Shown: positions 52,249-63,105 of the stretch, piece by piece
How positions within the stretch are numbered: position 1 is the stretch's first letter
Layout: each line of letters starts with the position of its first letter
NCBI GenBank assembly: GCA_024639785.1
Contig: JAHEGI010000021.1
Span: forward strand, 133,857 to 197,856
DNA length: 64,000 nt
Reading direction: 5' to 3'
Source: Cryomorphaceae bacterium
GTDB taxonomy: Bacteria > Bacteroidota > Bacteroidia > Flavobacteriales > Schleiferiaceae
Program-made: the position numbers and the translations under genes
Notes under the pieces: model-generated
The model's database searches: none
The model's input: only the letters and a program-made list of their open reading frames with translations
Told to the model about the DNA's origin: nothing

Positions 52249-52869
52249 CTAACGCAGCCAGGGTCGCAGGACGCGCAGCACGGAAACCAGGGATAGTCCT
52301 TTCACGTTGTCAAAGTCCCCTTCCATTTTGGTAATGGCCACATGGCCAATCCATTCTTGGGCCCCGTAGCCACCGGCTTTATCTAAGGGCTGGCAGGTGT
52401 CTACATACCACTGCAGCCAGGAGTCAGGGAGATCGGCCATCGTGACAAGGGTCGTATTCTCGCTGGTTTCCCAACGTTGCCCATCCGTAGCCCAAACGGC
52501 CGTAATGACCTTGTGGGTGCGACCACGTAGGCGTTGCAGCATGGTGAGGGCATGGGCGAGGTCGCGCGGCTTTCCAAAGCGCTCTCCGTCCATCCAGACT
52601 TCGGTGTCTGCCGTAAGGAGGATTTCGCCGGGTTGCAAGGTGGCGACCAGGGCCTCGGCTTTCTCTTTGGCGACAAAACGCACGGTTTCGACATCGTTCA
52701 AGTCTGCAGGGGCGATTTCCGCGGTGTCGGCGGTGCGCACCTCAAAGGGCAGCCCAAAGAGGCTGAGGAGTTCTTTTCGCCGGGGAGAACCGCTTCCAAG
52801 CACTAGCTGACCATCCAGCGCAATGGGACAGGCGAGGCCTACCAGTTCCGATCCGAAGGCAGGTTCCAT
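52249..52869 (-). CDS. maf: Maf family nucleotide pyrophosphatase
   Basis: 206 residues. LVLGSGSPRRKELL at the N-terminus, LLTADTEVW and LDKAGGYGAQ are the Maf motifs. It hydrolyses non-canonical or pyrimidine NTPs. The first 20 or so residues overlap kdsC (31 bases), so the true start might be the later LVLGSGSP region, but no ATG lies between. Confidence 0.92.
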   Translation of the reverse strand: MEPAFGSELVGLACPIALDGQLVLGSGSPRRKELLSLFGLPFEVRTADTAEIAPADLNDVETVRFVAKEKAEALVATLQPGEILLTADTEVWMDGERFGKPRDLAHALTMLQRLRGRTHKVITAVWATDGQRWETSENTTLVTMADLPDSWLQWYVDTCQPLDKAGGYGAQEWIGHVAITKMEGDFDNVKGLSLVSVLRVLRPWLR

Positions 52870-53357
52870 TTGCCGTGCACTTTTAAGGTTTGTTCAATGA
52901 GGTCACGGACACAGCCCTCTCCGCCATTGATTGGGGAGATGTAATCGCAAATGCTCCGAATTTCTGGGGCCGAATCATGCGGGCAGGTTGCTAATCCGAC
53001 GCGTGTCAAAACTTCATAGTCCGGCAGGTCATCCCCCATGTAGGCGATCTCTTCAGCCTTGAGTTCATAGGCTAGCATCAGCTCTTCCAAGGCTTCTTCC
53101 TTGTGTCGTGCGCCGAGCCAAACATCCGTGATGCCCGCGGATACAAATCGTTCCTTGACGGCTTCAGACTTTCCTCCCGTGATGATCGCAATCCGGTACC
53201 CTTGGCGCAGGGCAACTTGCAAAGCATAGCCATCCTTGGAATGAAAGGTTCGAATTGGCTCCTGTCCGGGAAGAATGAGGATATGTCCATTGGTGAATAC
53301 CCCGTCTACGTCAAAGACGAACGTGGTGATCCCGTGCAGTTTGCTTTTATAGTTCAT
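52839..53357 (-). CDS. kdsC: KDO 8-phosphate phosphatase (KdsC family)
   Basis: 172 residues, HAD superfamily without cap. DxD nucleophile in FVFDVDGVFTNG, ITGGKSEAVKERF, and MGDDLPDYEVL. It makes 3-deoxy-manno-octulosonate for lipopolysaccharide. It overlaps the DUF2520 gene by ATGA. Confidence 0.9.
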   Translation of the reverse strand: MNYKSKLHGITTFVFDVDGVFTNGHILILPGQEPIRTFHSKDGYALQVALRQGYRIAIITGGKSEAVKERFVSAGITDVWLGARHKEEALEELMLAYELKAEEIAYMGDDLPDYEVLTRVGLATCPHDSAPEIRSICDYISPINGGEGCVRDLIEQTLKVHGKWNLPSDRNW

Positions 53358-54073
53358 GACTGAGACGCGTGGAAGCGTTGAATGCTCTCGCTGAGTGCAA
53401 GATACAGGTCGCGAAGCTCTTCGGGGAGCTCTCGGAGGTGCCGTTCCATCGTGGCCTGGTCCCCGCGTAAGGCTGGGCCCGTTTGGAGGGTCTTCGCATC
53501 ACCGAGCAAAGCGTTTTGGACGGATTCTAAAAACATAGCTTCCAATCCGGTCACCCCGGTTTGTGCCTGGTACGTTTGAAAGAGGGCGGCGAGATGATTG
53601 GGGAAATTGTTTGCCCATACCGCGCCCAAATGATAGGCCCCTCGCTGTTCGGAAGTGGCCCATTCGCCTGGGACGGGTATGCCCAAAGCTTGGTGCCAGT
53701 CGTTCAAGGTGGAAGCGAGGGTATCATTCTCCCAAAAAATGCGGAATTGGCCCCAGGGTACGTCAGGACTTCGAAATGACTGCATTGGATACCACACCCC
53801 GCTCAGAGGCACGGAGGCCAGGGCACTTAATGGTGTCGCACCGCTGCAGTGAAATACGGGATACGTTGGATGATGCGCGACTAAGGCCTCGGCGGCTGCA
53901 GCAAGGGCGTCGTCTGGGAGGGCCAAGAAGAGTGCTCGGCTGTTAGCGGAAGGAAGGTCTATTCCTTCGGACCATGCCCGAGCAGAAACGTGTTGAAATG
54001 AACCCCCACGAGCACGCAAGCGATGGGCTAATGCCGTGGCAACTTTACCATGACCGGCGATGCACCACGTCAT
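53354..54073 (-). CDS. DUF2520 Rossmann-fold protein
   Basis: 239 residues. Nucleotide site WCIAGHGKVATALAHRL, FLALPDDAL, VFHCSGATPLSAL and the helical C-terminal dimer domain (GAVWANNFPNHL). A ketopantoate-reductase/pyrroline-5-carboxylate-reductase-like architecture; the substrate is unknown. Coupled by ATGA to ccmF and kdsC. Confidence 0.85.
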   Translation of the reverse strand: MTWCIAGHGKVATALAHRLRARGGSFQHVSARAWSEGIDLPSANSRALFLALPDDALAAAAEALVAHHPTYPVFHCSGATPLSALASVPLSGVWYPMQSFRSPDVPWGQFRIFWENDTLASTLNDWHQALGIPVPGEWATSEQRGAYHLGAVWANNFPNHLAALFQTYQAQTGVTGLEAMFLESVQNALLGDAKTLQTGPALRGDQATMERHLRELPEELRDLYLALSESIQRFHASQS

Positions 54074-56562
54074 TTTGCTCCTTCACTCAGGCTTCGGTAG
54101 ATCCGCTTCCACACTGCGAGCAGACTGCCGATCCCCATGAGGATCGAACCTAGCCAAAGCAAGTTGATATATGGGAAAATAAACGCCTGCATCAAAATGA
54201 AGGGCGGGTCATTGGCCTTTTTCTGCCAGGCAGTAATGCCATAGCTACCTTCTTCATCCTTCACTCCATCAAAACGCAGCTTGATACCTAGCGCTTCCAG
54301 TTGGACTTCTTCGTTGGAGACGGAATTGCCATCCAATAGATAGGGCAAAAGAATGGGATAGGTTTGGCCATCCATCGCTTTCAAGGTCATACTCAGCGCG
54401 AGTTCAAGATGCGTGAGCTCTCCACTTGCTGGATCAAAGGCGGCATCGACTACCACCAGCGTGTCCCCATGGAGCAAGTACTCGTTAAAAAGGAATACCT
54501 CATCGCCCGTTTTGAGCGAGGCTTCCATCGGTTCCTTCCAGTCGCCTTGCTGCTCCTCCGCGTTCCGCAGATCGGCGTAGCTGACATAGGTGTAGATATC
54601 CTTATTCCAAAAATGCTTTGTACTCGGTTCCCGAACGTTGCCCATGCGCGCATTCATCTGAATGAAGGGCTGCAGGCTAAAGCTGGTTTTGAGGTGCTTG
54701 CGCTCTCCGTCGGCCCAGGAGGCCAGGGGGGATTCCACCTCATAAAATTCTACATCGTAGACGCGGTTGTGTCCTTCCATGCGTTCTCCTTTCCAACTGA
54801 CATAGTAGGGGAACATGGAAACCGTATCGCCCATCGGCAAGAGGACATTCTCGTTCGCGGGAAAATCCTCGTGAATAAAGGTGGCATTGGTGGAAATGGC
54901 CTCCTTTTTTGCGTTGCTAATCAGGGCGCCAATGAGGACCAGCGCGAAGCCCAAATGCGCTAATGCCATTCCGCCCGCGGTCCACTTGCCTTTGAGGTAG
55001 CGGAGCCAGTAATCGGCGTTTGCAAAGAAGGCAAAAAGAGATGCGCCCAAGAGAGCCACGTACAGGATGTCCCACAAGTCCAAGCCCCACGCAATGACGA
55101 AGGTCAAGACGACGGAGATGATCAAAGACAGGGTGGCTCGACGGATTAAGGCGTTTGGACTTTCTTTCCAGCGCAAGAAAGGACCCATCGCCATGAGGAT
55201 AGAAATAATGATGGCAAAAGGAATCTGCAGGCTGTTATAGTGCCTTGCGGCATCGGCAGGAGGGGCCATTTTGGCATCCAAAAGCGGTAGTAAGCCTTCG
55301 GGACCGATTAACTTATTGAATACGGGAATGCTCGTGGAAAGGGTAATTTGACCGGCCGAAAGGAGCAAGGTTAGGGCGCCAATAAACATCCAAAACTCAC
55401 GGGAGGAAAAGGCATCTTCGGAAGCGCTTTTGGGAAGGGAGCGCGCGCGCCAGAAGAAGACCACCAAGCTTCCCACCGTAAAGAATCCTAAGAAAGCTAG
55501 GAGTTGGCCGTTGAGACCCAAGTCAACAAAGGCGTGTACGGAGCTATCTCCAAGGATGCCGCTTCGGGTCAAAAAGGTGGAGTACAACACCAGTAAGAAG
55601 GAGAGAATGGCTAAAAAGAGCGTCGTGCCCGGTGCGGTCTTTTTGTGCTTGACGATCATCATCAAATGTCCAGTGGCCACCAGGGTAAGCCATGGGACGA
55701 GGGAAGAGTTTTCTACTGGATCCCAGGCCCAAAATCCGCCGAAACTCAAGGCTTCGTAGGCCCACGCGCCGCCCATGAGGACTCCGGTTCCCAAAATCGC
55801 TACACCAAAGAAGGTCCAGGGTAGCGCGGGCAGAACCCAGTCCGTGTAGCGCTTCTCAATTAATGCCGTGATGGCAAAAAGGAAAGGAATGGTGACCGAA
55901 GCAAAGCCCAAGAATAAGGTCGGTGGATGGATGACCATCCAATAGTTTTGAAGCAAAGGGTTGAGGCCCTGCCCATCGCGGAAAGCGGGAATGCGCATTA
56001 AGTAGTCCCTGAATTCGGTCCATGGCAGTCCTATGTTCTCAGGGAGTTCGCGAATGAGCACGAAAGGGGAGGAGCCGAGCTTTACCTCGCCGAAGTACAC
56101 CCCAAGTAGCATGGAGGCTAGAAATAACTGAACGATGGCCAATCCGAAGAGCGTGCCATATTCCCATGTTTTGGCGGTCTTGATGAGAACCCATCCGAGA
56201 ATCATATGCCAGGTCAGCCAAAGCAGGAAGCTTCCTTCTTGACCTTCCCAAAAACAGGAAGCGATGTATTCGAGCGGCATATCGAGCGAACTGTGGCGCC
56301 AGACATAATCGAATTCAAACCAGTGATTGAACAGCGCCGCAAAGAGCACTCCGATGGTGCCTAAAACCCCGAGGCTATGCAGTCCAAAGGCCCATCGACC
56401 AGCCGTGCGAAGGGAATGAACAGGGCGCTCTTCGCGCGCAGCTGGAGACCGAAAAACCTGCAACCCATAAAAAAACGCAGCAACGAATGCCCCTGCAAAG
56501 GAAAGGGCGACAAACAAGCGCCCGGCGAGGGACCAAAGGTGATGTTCTCCGAGGTATTGCAT
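54070..56562 (-). CDS. ccmF: Cytochrome c heme lyase CcmF/CcsA family
   Basis: 830 residues, about 14 helices plus a large C-terminal periplasmic part (about 570-790). The haem-handling WWD-type motif is GGFWAWDPVENSSLVPW (about 275-290), with IHPP near 211. CcmF attaches haem carried by CcmE to apocytochromes. Upstream ccmE shares bases (TAATG). Confidence 0.92.
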   Translation of the reverse strand: MQYLGEHHLWSLAGRLFVALSFAGAFVAAFFYGLQVFRSPAAREERPVHSLRTAGRWAFGLHSLGVLGTIGVLFAALFNHWFEFDYVWRHSSLDMPLEYIASCFWEGQEGSFLLWLTWHMILGWVLIKTAKTWEYGTLFGLAIVQLFLASMLLGVYFGEVKLGSSPFVLIRELPENIGLPWTEFRDYLMRIPAFRDGQGLNPLLQNYWMVIHPPTLFLGFASVTIPFLFAITALIEKRYTDWVLPALPWTFFGVAILGTGVLMGGAWAYEALSFGGFWAWDPVENSSLVPWLTLVATGHLMMIVKHKKTAPGTTLFLAILSFLLVLYSTFLTRSGILGDSSVHAFVDLGLNGQLLAFLGFFTVGSLVVFFWRARSLPKSASEDAFSSREFWMFIGALTLLLSAGQITLSTSIPVFNKLIGPEGLLPLLDAKMAPPADAARHYNSLQIPFAIIISILMAMGPFLRWKESPNALIRRATLSLIISVVLTFVIAWGLDLWDILYVALLGASLFAFFANADYWLRYLKGKWTAGGMALAHLGFALVLIGALISNAKKEAISTNATFIHEDFPANENVLLPMGDTVSMFPYYVSWKGERMEGHNRVYDVEFYEVESPLASWADGERKHLKTSFSLQPFIQMNARMGNVREPSTKHFWNKDIYTYVSYADLRNAEEQQGDWKEPMEASLKTGDEVFLFNEYLLHGDTLVVVDAAFDPASGELTHLELALSMTLKAMDGQTYPILLPYLLDGNSVSNEEVQLEALGIKLRFDGVKDEEGSYGITAWQKKANDPPFILMQAFIFPYINLLWLGSILMGIGSLLAVWKRIYRSLSEGAK

Positions 56563-56975
56563 TAGGGCGCAGGCTGGGTTTGGTTATAGGTGCCATCCGC
56601 AACGACGCCTTCGCCATCCGTGTATTTGGATGGACATTTCATGAGGATTTCGGTCGCGATGAACGCGTCGTCTTTGTAGTGACCTGTGAGGGTGATTTCT
56701 TCACTGCGCTCAAAGTCGGTTGGCTTGGGCTGGTTGTAAATAACCGTCGAAGCGACTCCTTCCTTGTCCAAAGCGGTGAAGGTGAGTAATGAGCTTTCCG
56801 CTTGAAAATCCATGGGCTTTTCTACATCCAAAACTGCGACGACCGTCACGGTTTCAGGTTGCTGTTTTTTGGCCATGGTGAACGTAGCGTAGACGCTGGC
56901 ATCCTGGAGTGTAACCAACAGGGCCCCAATCAAAATCGCTACTACCGCGAGAAGGATGATGGAACTGCGCTTCAT
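56562..56975 (-). CDS. ccmE: Cytochrome c maturation protein CcmE, Cys-type
   Basis: 137 residues: one N-terminal helix (about 5-23) and an OB-fold periplasmic domain (ITLTGHYKDDAFIATEIL). The haem-binding His of classical CcmE (HxxxY) is replaced by Cys114 in CPSKY (Cys114, Tyr118). Variants with CxxxY are known from archaea and sulfate reducers that lack CcmG and CcmH. ATG 56975 overlaps the ccmD stop. Confidence 0.92.
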   Translation of the reverse strand: MKRSSIILLAVVAILIGALLVTLQDASVYATFTMAKKQQPETVTVVAVLDVEKPMDFQAESSLLTFTALDKEGVASTVIYNQPKPTDFERSEEITLTGHYKDDAFIATEILMKCPSKYTDGEGVVADGTYNQTQPAP

Positions 56976-57136
56976 GGCTTTTGCTCCAATTTTTTGATCC
57001 GTCGATCCATCCAAATGAGATAGGCGACCAATCCAACAAAAACGATTCCCAAAACGACGAGAACGACCAACATCTTTCCTTCAGAACGAAAGATATCGGC
57101 CATTTCAGCGGGGGGAGCTTGTAAAAATGTGTTCAT
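56972..57136 (-). CDS. ccmD: CcmD-like small membrane protein
   Basis: 54 residues with one helix (about 22-43) and a positive C-terminal tail (DRRIKKLEQKP). Position between ccmC and ccmE and topology fit CcmD, which helps release haem-CcmE from the ABC complex. Two bases separate it from ccmC; it overlaps ccmE by four. Confidence 0.8.
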   Translation of the reverse strand: MNTFLQAPPAEMADIFRSEGKMLVVLVVLGIVFVGLVAYLIWMDRRIKKLEQKP

Positions 57137-57138
57137 GG

Positions 57139-57810
57139 TTAGTGATTGTTTCGGTAACGCAGGCGCTCGAGCCGGACGCGAAGGGTGGCGATCCACCATC
57201 CCATGAGAATCCATCCCAGAACGGCCGGGTAGAATACCATCCGCATTCCATTGTCTAAATCATAATTTCCAAAGGCGGGATTTCCGCCATTCCCTGGATG
57301 CAGGGAATCAGTCATTCGGGGAAGAATCCCGATGAAGACAATCATTAAGACAAACGCAAAAACATTATACACTGCCGCAAGACGAGCCCGTTTTTCTGGA
57401 TCATCGATGCTGGTGCGCAAAATGAAGTAAGCCGCATAGATCAACAAGGTTACGGCCGTGCCTTGCAGCTTGGGGTCGGCCGTCCAGTAAGCCCCCCAGG
57501 TTGCTTTGGCCCAAATCATCCCGGTAAAGAGCCCGAGCATGGCAAATACCATGGCAACTTCGGCAAAAGAACGCGCCTGATTATCCCGATCGAGGTTCGA
57601 TGGTTGACCTTCAGTGCCGGAGCGTAAAAAACGGAATGAATAGGCAAGAGAGCCGCCTAGAAGCGCAATCATGCTGAACCACATCGGAACGTGGAAATAG
57701 AGGTTTCGGATGGTTTCGTTCAAGATGACGAGCCGCGGCACGTCAAACATGAGACCGGCATAGAGGGAGTAGCCCACTAGCACTATGGCAAGAATTTTCC
57801 AAGCTTTCAT
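57139..57810 (-). CDS. ccmC: Haem handling protein CcmC
   Basis: 223 residues, six helices. The WWD-type motif is WAKATWGAYWTADPKLQ, with NLYFHVPMWFS before it. It loads haem onto CcmE. The ATG overlaps the ccmB TGA (TGATG). Confidence 0.92.
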   Translation of the reverse strand: MKAWKILAIVLVGYSLYAGLMFDVPRLVILNETIRNLYFHVPMWFSMIALLGGSLAYSFRFLRSGTEGQPSNLDRDNQARSFAEVAMVFAMLGLFTGMIWAKATWGAYWTADPKLQGTAVTLLIYAAYFILRTSIDDPEKRARLAAVYNVFAFVLMIVFIGILPRMTDSLHPGNGGNPAFGNYDLDNGMRMVFYPAVLGWILMGWWIATLRVRLERLRYRNNH

Positions 57811-58487
57811 CAGGAGCGCCAAAGGTACGGAAAGAGCAGCCCGCCGAGGGCTAATGGAATGGCCGCCATGAGAATTTCTCCCGCCCAATTCGGGTATAAA
57901 ACGAGAGGTGTTTCGCCCAACAGGGCCAATTTGCTCGCCCGCATCGAGACCAAGAGGGTTGGCAATAAAAGTGGAAGGCTCAAAATCGCCATCATCCCGG
58001 TGCCCCGGTCCATCTTGGACGCTAACGCCGCGGTGAAACTCAATGTGGCCGAAATGGCTATAGCACCCAAGGAAATACTCACAAGAAAAGGCCAGGTAGC
58101 CACGGAGGCATCCGTTTCTGGAATGTGCGGCCAGCCTAGCCAGAGGCCAAAGAGTAACAGGCCAGTCCAGGTGACCAAGAGGCTGCTTCCCGCGGTGCTC
58201 ATGGTTTTACCCAAAAGCAATTCGATAGGTTGTACAATCTGGTTTAGATAGAGCCATTGACCCGCACTTGCGGAGAAACTTCGGCTGGCAGTCTGCAAGG
58301 CGCTGAAGACAATGGTCATCCAAAGCAATGCCAGCCAAACGGTAGGGCTGGGCTCTCGCACTAGGAGGGAACATAAATACGCTACCATGGCCGCAAAGAG
58401 GACGGGTAGGAACCAGCCATTTGATCGGCGGTATTCCAATTCCCACTCCCAACGAAGCATTTGACGGATAGCTTGAGGACGAATCAC
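57810..58487 (-). CDS. ccmB: Haem exporter permease CcmB
   Basis: 225 residues, six helices, opening with a basic, Trp-rich segment (LRWEWELEYRRSNGW) and FSASAGQWLYLNQIVQPIELLLGK. GTG 58487 is preferred because it follows a consensus -7 box by four bases. An ATG nine codons later is the alternative. The ATPase ccmA is not beside it. Confidence 0.88.
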   Translation of the reverse strand: MIRPQAIRQMLRWEWELEYRRSNGWFLPVLFAAMVAYLCSLLVREPSPTVWLALLWMTIVFSALQTASRSFSASAGQWLYLNQIVQPIELLLGKTMSTAGSSLLVTWTGLLLFGLWLGWPHIPETDASVATWPFLVSISLGAIAISATLSFTAALASKMDRGTGMMAILSLPLLLPTLLVSMRASKLALLGETPLVLYPNWAGEILMAAIPLALGGLLFPYLWRS

Positions 58488-58491
58488 GGCA

Positions 58492-58499
58492 CAAAGGTA
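58492..58499 (-). promoter_or_regulatory. -7 box of the ccm operon
   Basis: TACCTTTG, four bases (TGCC) before the GTG start of ccmB. It supports GTG as the true start and a leaderless message. Confidence 0.55.
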
Positions 58500-58564
58500 G
58501 GGCTGGGCTGAACTTAGCCTAGCCATTTGCGGTTAACAAGTGGAATGGCTGGATAAATCAGCCG

Positions 58565-58579: not shown

Positions 58580-59149
58580 ATGAAAAAGACCTTTACTTTT
58601 TTTGCCATGGGATTACTCGGTATGCTTCTCGGTTGTGGCCACAGTGTGGCACAGCCTGTCCATGGTGCCGTGGACTTTTACAGTCTTTCTGCTCAGACGC
58701 TAGATGGCGAGACTTTTGACTTTGAGCAATTGCGTGGCAAGCGGGTGCTGATTGTGAATACCGCCTCGGAATGTGGATTTACTCCCCAGTACAAAGACTT
58801 ACAAGCGCTTTGGGATCAGTCCAATCACGAAGAGTTCATCATTCTAGGTTTCCCATGCAACGATTTTGGTAACCAAGAATCTGGGTCAGCCGATGACATC
58901 AAGTCATTTTGCAGCAAGAACTACGGTGTCACCTTCCAAATGATGGAAAAAGTGTCGATCAAAGGGGAGCACGTGCATCCAGTATATCAGTGGTTGACGC
59001 AAAAGGATCAGAATGGCAACAGCAACGCCAACGTGCGCTGGAATTTTTGCAAATTCGCTGTGAATGAAGAAGGGCAATGGTCTGCGTCCTACTTGATGAC
59101 TACCTCTCCATTGAGCAAAGACATCAAGCAATTCGCAGGAGTTCAATAA
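58580..59149 (+). CDS. Glutathione-peroxidase family thiol peroxidase, exported
   Basis: 189 residues. Peroxidatic Cys65 in NTASECGFT (Cys instead of selenocysteine), Cys93 in FPCN, Gln99, and Trp154-Asn155 in RWNFCKF. An N-terminal hydrophobic signal with MLLGC may make it a lipoprotein, or it is cleaved after SVAQ. Such enzymes usually take electrons from thioredoxin, and the organism appears to use bacillithiol rather than glutathione. It is followed 24 bases later by bshB1. Confidence 0.88.
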   Translation: MKKTFTFFAMGLLGMLLGCGHSVAQPVHGAVDFYSLSAQTLDGETFDFEQLRGKRVLIVNTASECGFTPQYKDLQALWDQSNHEEFIILGFPCNDFGNQESGSADDIKSFCSKNYGVTFQMMEKVSIKGEHVHPVYQWLTQKDQNGNSNANVRWNFCKFAVNEEGQWSASYLMTTSPLSKDIKQFAGVQ

Positions 59150-62613: not shown

Positions 62614-62997
62614 TCAGTGGTGATGCCCGTCCCCTTCTATGGCCATGCCTTGAGCGAAGAGGTAGCGGAATATGGCTTGTTCGCCGGACTTGGTAACCAC
62701 CTCTCCTCCTGATTTTTGGTTCGCCTTGCGGGCCATGTTGGGGATGATGGCGGTCCATTGTTCTTCATTCAGAATGGACGCCGGGTGGAGTGTATGACAA
62801 CGGTTGCATTGAGTTTGGTACAGTGCTTCACCTGCTTGGTATTCAGTCAACGTGTACCCTGGGAATTTGGCTTGCAAGGCCGAGTCTGATAAATTACTCG
62901 CCGCGGTCGTTTCTGTTTTTGGCGCAAATAAGGCTCCGCAGGCGCTTAGGATTAACAAGAAAGAACACACGGTGGTCCATTTAAAAAATGTAGTCAT
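62614..62997 (-). CDS. Lipoprotein monohaem cytochrome c
   Basis: 127 residues. ATG 62997 gives a lipoprotein signal with Cys20 (LILSAC). One haem site CNRCH (Cys64, Cys67, His68) and a likely distal Met88 in IPNMARKA. The chain ends in GDGHHH. A small membrane-tethered electron carrier, plausible client of the ccm genes at 54070-58487. Upstream, no TAnnTTTG box is clear. Confidence 0.85.
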   Translation of the reverse strand: MTTFFKWTTVCSFLLILSACGALFAPKTETTAASNLSDSALQAKFPGYTLTEYQAGEALYQTQCNRCHTLHPASILNEEQWTAIIPNMARKANQKSGGEVVTKSGEQAIFRYLFAQGMAIEGDGHHH

Positions 62998-63105
62998 GGT
63001 GGGATAGGATTTTTGGAAAGTTCGTGAAAATTTGACAGACGAAACAGGGAGTAACATCGTTGAAAAGTTGTGGCGCTCTGCATTTCATTGCACCCACAGA
63101 CCTTT

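Follow-up and report, generated by a model that had tools for sequence, protein, structure and literature searches.

The genome of the Cryomorphaceae bacterium studied here contains a set of cytochrome c maturation (ccm) genes that very probably represents the Bacteroidota form of System I*, and its membership in the System I* family as such is near certain. The cysteine-type haem chaperone CcmE that marks this set appears, from the sequences compared and as far as sampled, to be the rule in Bacteroidota and not an oddity of this genome. The window, i.e. the whole analysed stretch of DNA with its 64,000 nucleotides, includes ccmB-C-D-E-F as one tight run on the minus strand (Table 1). Most joints between these genes are short overlaps (the ATG of ccmC at 57810, for example, overlaps the stop of ccmB), which suggests a single transcript. 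The real start of ccmB may be an internal GTG or ATG and that of ccmD is probably an internal ATG near 57136. All five products score above the Pfam cut-offs (CcmB; Cytochrom_C_asm for CcmC; CcmD_alt; CcmE; Cytochrom_C_asm and CcmF_C for CcmF), in agreement with the initial annotation, which had placed ccmB, C, D and F around ccmE. Its further statement that ccmF is followed by DUF2520, kdsC and maf instead of ccmG or ccmH was borne out by matches to PF10728, a KdsC-type HAD phosphatase and PF02545. The span that it had given for the cluster (56562-58487) covers ccmE to ccmB and leaves ccmF outside. Inspection by eye revealed no ccmI in the cluster. The BCDEF order is conserved throughout the family and in a large part of the class, and as this order is kept together with an invariant CPSKY motif in CcmE the set cannot be attributed to chance. 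Within the family also the glutathione peroxidase-family gene stays beside ccmB (synteny, loci L137-L140). With the NCBIfam models none of CcmA, B, C, E and F reaches its cut-off here, and the scores for B, C, E and F are far below. This shortfall constitutes an annotation gap, and automatic annotation may overlook the ccm set.

Table 1. Genes of the ccm cluster, their neighbours and a possible client cytochrome (positions within the window)
Feature	Position	Strand	Remarks
Maf-like protein	52249..52869	-	conserved neighbour; PF02545, 171.2 bits
KdsC-like HAD phosphatase	52839..53357	-	conserved neighbour; PF08282, 30.8 bits
DUF2520 protein	53354..54073	-	conserved neighbour without known haem link; PF10728, 72.7 bits
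ccmF	54070..56562	-	cytochrome c synthetase, 830 aa; PF01578 and PF16327
ccmE	56562..56975	-	haem chaperone, CPSKY replacing HxxxY; PF03100, 39.9 bits
ccmD (CcmD_alt)	56972..57214	-	PF20077, 56.3 bits
ccmC	57139..57810	-	WWD-family haem handler; PF01578, 76.8 bits; matches E. coli CcmC (7f02)
ccmB	57810..58526	-	membrane component of the ABC complex CcmAB; PF03379, 34.8 bits, above cut-off
Glutathione peroxidase-family gene	58580..59149	+	divergent from ccmB; PF00255, 136.1 bits
Monohaem CXXCH lipoprotein	62614..63057	-	possible client; CNRCH and LSAC lipobox; weak PF13442 match, 23.2 bits, below cut-off of 27

Counted from the ATG at 56975 CcmE comprises 137 amino acids, contains ILMKCPSKYTDG and shows the motif Cys114-P-S-K-Tyr118, with exactly the numbering given in the initial annotation. 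A search of the genome (1.82 Mb, 98% complete, 22 contigs) returned this Cys-type protein as the single CcmE; neither a second nor a His-type CcmE was found. The structural model consists of a membrane helix and an OB fold (pLDDT 88.5), and its best matches in the PDB are the CcmE structures 8ce8, 1lm0 and 1j6q. The Cys-type CcmE of Desulfovibrio vulgaris (2kct) occupies rank 6 and has the highest target-normalised TM-score of these four. At two other loci (L162:6594-6974 (-) and L165:6609-7034 (-)) the Cys-type ccmE is directly followed by the gene of another CcmE-like protein, in which the CPSKY end is entirely missing.

CcmE is encoded in 192 of 296 sampled Bacteroidota genomes, all of which are 90% complete or better, and in 82 of 88 genomes of the family. 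The initial annotation had proposed an alignment of CcmE across the phylum and had implied that the Cys-type is rare. The comparison demonstrated the opposite, namely a Cys-type motif throughout: in all 109 genomes read (78 from the phylum sample, 30 further ones from the family and the genome described here), which cover 43 families, the motif is CPSKY (108 genomes) or CPSRY (one genome) and never of the His-type. The Pfam model used for CcmE is not biased towards cysteine since it also matches the control proteins of E. coli and Caulobacter, which we take to be His-type. A further 80 loci came from named records, including Pedobacter, Chitinophaga, Sphingobacterium and Mucilaginibacter. CcmE was found in 72 of them with CPSKY in every case, although this series is less independent because the loci were collected with CcmF as query and CcmE was then located with a Cys-type profile. 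Among these records is an Owenweeksia MAG, the CcmF of which shares 68% identity with that of the present genome.

CcmH (PF03918) exceeds its cut-off in only two of the 296 genomes, with at most 30.5 bits, and both passers are unusual double-domain zinc-ribbon proteins from other classes of the phylum. The weak PF03918 matches in the phylum were therefore rejected as ordinary CcmH, being mostly proteins of this type. They are membrane proteins with an N-terminal zinc ribbon followed by two tandem divergent CcmH-like domains (CxCGxC...CxC; loci L064-L068, L070 and L187-L194), are found with a profile of their own in 10 of the 296 genomes and could be a CcmH of new layout.

In the genome described here PF03918 has no match, with positive controls in E. 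coli, Caulobacter, Thermus and Deinobacterium, and the profile of the divergent zinc-ribbon proteins has none either. A DsbE equivalog, as would be expected for CcmG, was likewise not found in this genome, where the best score with TIGR00385 is 55.6 bits versus a cut-off of 123.15. The best matches to this model are TlpA/ResA-like thioredoxins with WCxPC motifs. As these occur together with a full-length DsbD (N-terminal, membrane and thioredoxin parts) a thiol-reducing route is available. CcsA of System II was not detected; the only two PF01578 proteins of the genome are CcmC and CcmF, and System II was rejected as the real maturation route on this ground. The initial annotation had read the cluster as a reduced System I and had regarded a His-type CcmE or a full ccmGHI set elsewhere in the genome as evidence to the contrary. 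Its reading is sustained by the single Cys-type CcmE and by the failure to find CcmH, CcsA, a CcmG equivalog or a His-type CcmE in this genome. From its proposed genome search for ccmA, ccmG and ccmH only ccmA emerged, in an unlinked position.

Neither here nor in the class-mates examined does the gene of the ABC ATPase reside beside ccmB; in several other Bacteroidota lineages ccmA-B-C-D-E-F are linked. A profile of linked ccmA genes from outside the class Bacteroidia gave 1.7e-35 in the present genome, which lies within the range of CcmE-negative genomes and thus represents background. Loss of ccmA was nevertheless rejected, because a wider sequence set, a phylogenetic tree and synteny located the gene at C7. 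The wider profile and the tree took in unlinked ccmA genes from twenty other genomes. In this reconstruction a short ABC protein (C7:48694-49389) groups with ccmA of the class Bacteroidia (support 95/95); the inner forks are weaker, with moderate support, and the divergent, fast evolving sequence sits on a long branch. The gene lies between lpxA and efp in the arrangement lpxC/fabZ-lpxA-ccmA-efp, whereby the names lpxC, fabZ, lpxA and efp, given by homology and gene order, are presumably correct. The order lpxC/fabZ-lpxA-ccmA is found in all eight CcmE-positive class-mates examined and in none of 12 genomes from other classes. Judged by its place in the tree and the lpxA-linked synteny C7:48694-49389 is ccmA, and with it the ccm set is complete for A to F. 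In the class Bacteroidia ccmA is thus located in the lipid A gene cluster, far from ccmBCDEF (loci L304:5694-6389 (-) and L197-L204).

The WWD region of CcmC reads IWAKATWGAYWTADPK. Both periplasmic haem-ligand histidines of CcmC are conserved in 47 of 47 sequences, and the positions Trp114, Trp119, Trp123 and Asp126 are retained here. The position of Arg128 is occupied by lysine, a residue that works at this site in E. coli (PMC9616876), and that of Trp125 (E. coli numbering) by alanine. At the latter position most other classes possess Trp or Phe, and within the class Bacteroidia Asn, Gly, Ala, Ser or Phe occur. Loss of Trp125 was rejected as a hallmark of the class, since in the named records the site is occupied by Asn, Phe, Ser, Ala, Pro or Gly and is merely variable.

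The model of CcmF (pLDDT 89.7) matches CcmF from Thermus thermophilus (6zmq) with Z 34.7 over 566 residues. His212, His299, His343 and His536 are invariant in 48 relatives and presumably correspond in position to the P-His and TM-His ligands of CcmF. With 830 residues the protein is considerably longer than the 6zmq chain (660 residues), and a β-rich periplasmic segment of about 245 residues (553-797) is found between its last two helices. As to a known fold for this extension, the search with the CcmF model returned only partial matches (Z < 8, residues ~673-786). The β-rich domain might compensate for the missing CcmH. A bolder version, which we put forward tentatively and consider rather doubtful, is that in Bacteroidota this domain took over from CcmH/CcmI both the binding of apocytochromes and the thiol work. 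CcmF would then be a self-sufficient synthetase on its own, taking haem from thioether-linked CcmE. If this were true, System I members throughout the phylum would run maturation on cysteine haem-chaperone chemistry.

System I* is known from archaea, Desulfovibrio and other bacteria. It was defined with CPSKY as the commonest CcmE motif and, among bacteria, was assigned to delta-proteobacteria, chloroflexi and firmicutes; about one third of the bacteria with Cys-type CcmE retain CcmH (PMC3601427), so that the Cys-type chaperone and the absence of CcmH do not form one unit. In the literature found, including PMC3601427, Bacteroidota are not named as holders of System I*, and no experimental work on any CcmE from this phylum was encountered. 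Cytophagia and Chitinophagia have been counted as System I classes (PMC12077264). With System I* the present set shares a CxxxY-type CcmE (mostly CPSKY), the presence of CcmABCDF and the lack of CcmH and of a dedicated CcmG in the cluster; it differs in that ccmA is unlinked from ccmBCDEF and, from the archaeal System I*, in the presence of CcmD. In comparison with the classical System I of E. coli (CcmABCDEFGH) the families and folds of CcmA to CcmF are the same and the haem-ligand histidines of CcmC and CcmF are kept. In contrast, the position of His130 in CcmE is occupied by cysteine, CcmH and a CcmG equivalog were not found in the genome and Trp125 of CcmC is replaced. A WWD-family protein that attaches haem to CXXCH is also typical for System II (CcsBA or ResBC), the hallmark of which, CcsA, distinguishes it from the present set with PF01578 only in CcmC and CcmF. 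The System I* variant itself has already been described, and the new points are small ones: the Cys-type is universal among the CcmE proteins of the phylum as far as sampled, ccmA is linked to lpx genes and CcmF contains a large domain.

In the known System I route CcmCD bring haem to the WWD site, from where it passes to CcmE, is released by CcmAB and is transferred by CcmF to CXXCH (PMC12077264). For the present set we infer each step of the haem traffic from the studied systems. CcmC together with CcmD would present haem in the WWD site of CcmC, Cys114 of CcmE would attack a haem vinyl group and Tyr118 would become a ligand of the iron. CcmA and CcmB would then release holo-CcmE by ATP hydrolysis, and CcmF alone, without CcmH, would hand the haem to the CXXCH motifs of apocytochromes, the thiols of which would be kept reduced by DsbD and the TlpA/ResA-type thioredoxins. 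Maturation of this kind has a precedent in the Desulfovibrio ccm operon, with which E. coli produces mature cytochromes c although CcmG and CcmH are absent (PMC3601427).

Covalent attachment of haem to the cysteine of CcmE is the most likely mode of binding, and we consider it probable. It is not certain, because the Cys-type CcmE of D. vulgaris reportedly bound ferric haem non-covalently through C127 (PMC3884852), and on this model CcmE of Bacteroidota would be a non-covalent haem shuttle with Cys114 serving for iron coordination only. We regard such a shuttle as unlikely, since the Cys-CcmE of D. desulfuricans, if produced in E. coli together with its own Ccm operon, carries covalently bound haem (PMC3601427), the CXXXY motif of CcmE from Methanosarcina acetivorans is needed for haem attachment (PMC9084895), and both Cys and Tyr of the motif are invariant in the Bacteroidota sequences compared.

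Two other readings concern the set as a whole. According to the first, a CcmH-like protein so divergent that it escapes recognition stands in for CcmH. This idea gains some credit from the zinc-ribbon proteins with two CxCGxC domains in other Bacteroidota classes; we deem it improbable, as neither their profile nor PF03918 finds a match in this genome and their ten carriers compare with 192 genomes that possess CcmE. The small genome (1.8 Mb) and the divergent ccmA would fit with a decayed remnant of a ccm set next to another system that matures the cytochromes c, but every ccm gene is open with its key residues conserved, CcsA was not found in the genome, CcmE is retained in nearly the whole family and CXXCH proteins with signal sequence or lipobox are present. 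This last reading is already largely refuted and has only a minimal probability. The reading as System I* of Bacteroidota type is preferred.

As a possible client of the system the initial annotation had proposed the lipoprotein at 62614. With its CNRCH motif and lipobox this protein is a plausible client, but a specific link to the ccm genes was not found and other CXXCH proteins exist. Those seen in the portions of the genome that were read are a protein resembling di-haem peroxidases (L051) and two monohaem proteins at C7 (L298), all with signal sequences.

If a thioether bond in Cys-CcmE were as stable as those in cytochromes c, release of haem from the chaperone would be a puzzle, and in the literature found only Desulfovibrio and Methanosarcina have been studied in this respect. 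The question becomes broadly testable with the Bacteroidota, since all CcmE proteins read from this phylum are of the Cys-type and cultured members such as Pedobacter, Chitinophaga and Sphingobacterium carry it. The set of the present genome is ordinary for its group, and for the chemistry of cysteine haem chaperones the Bacteroidota offer a large and as yet unstudied reservoir.
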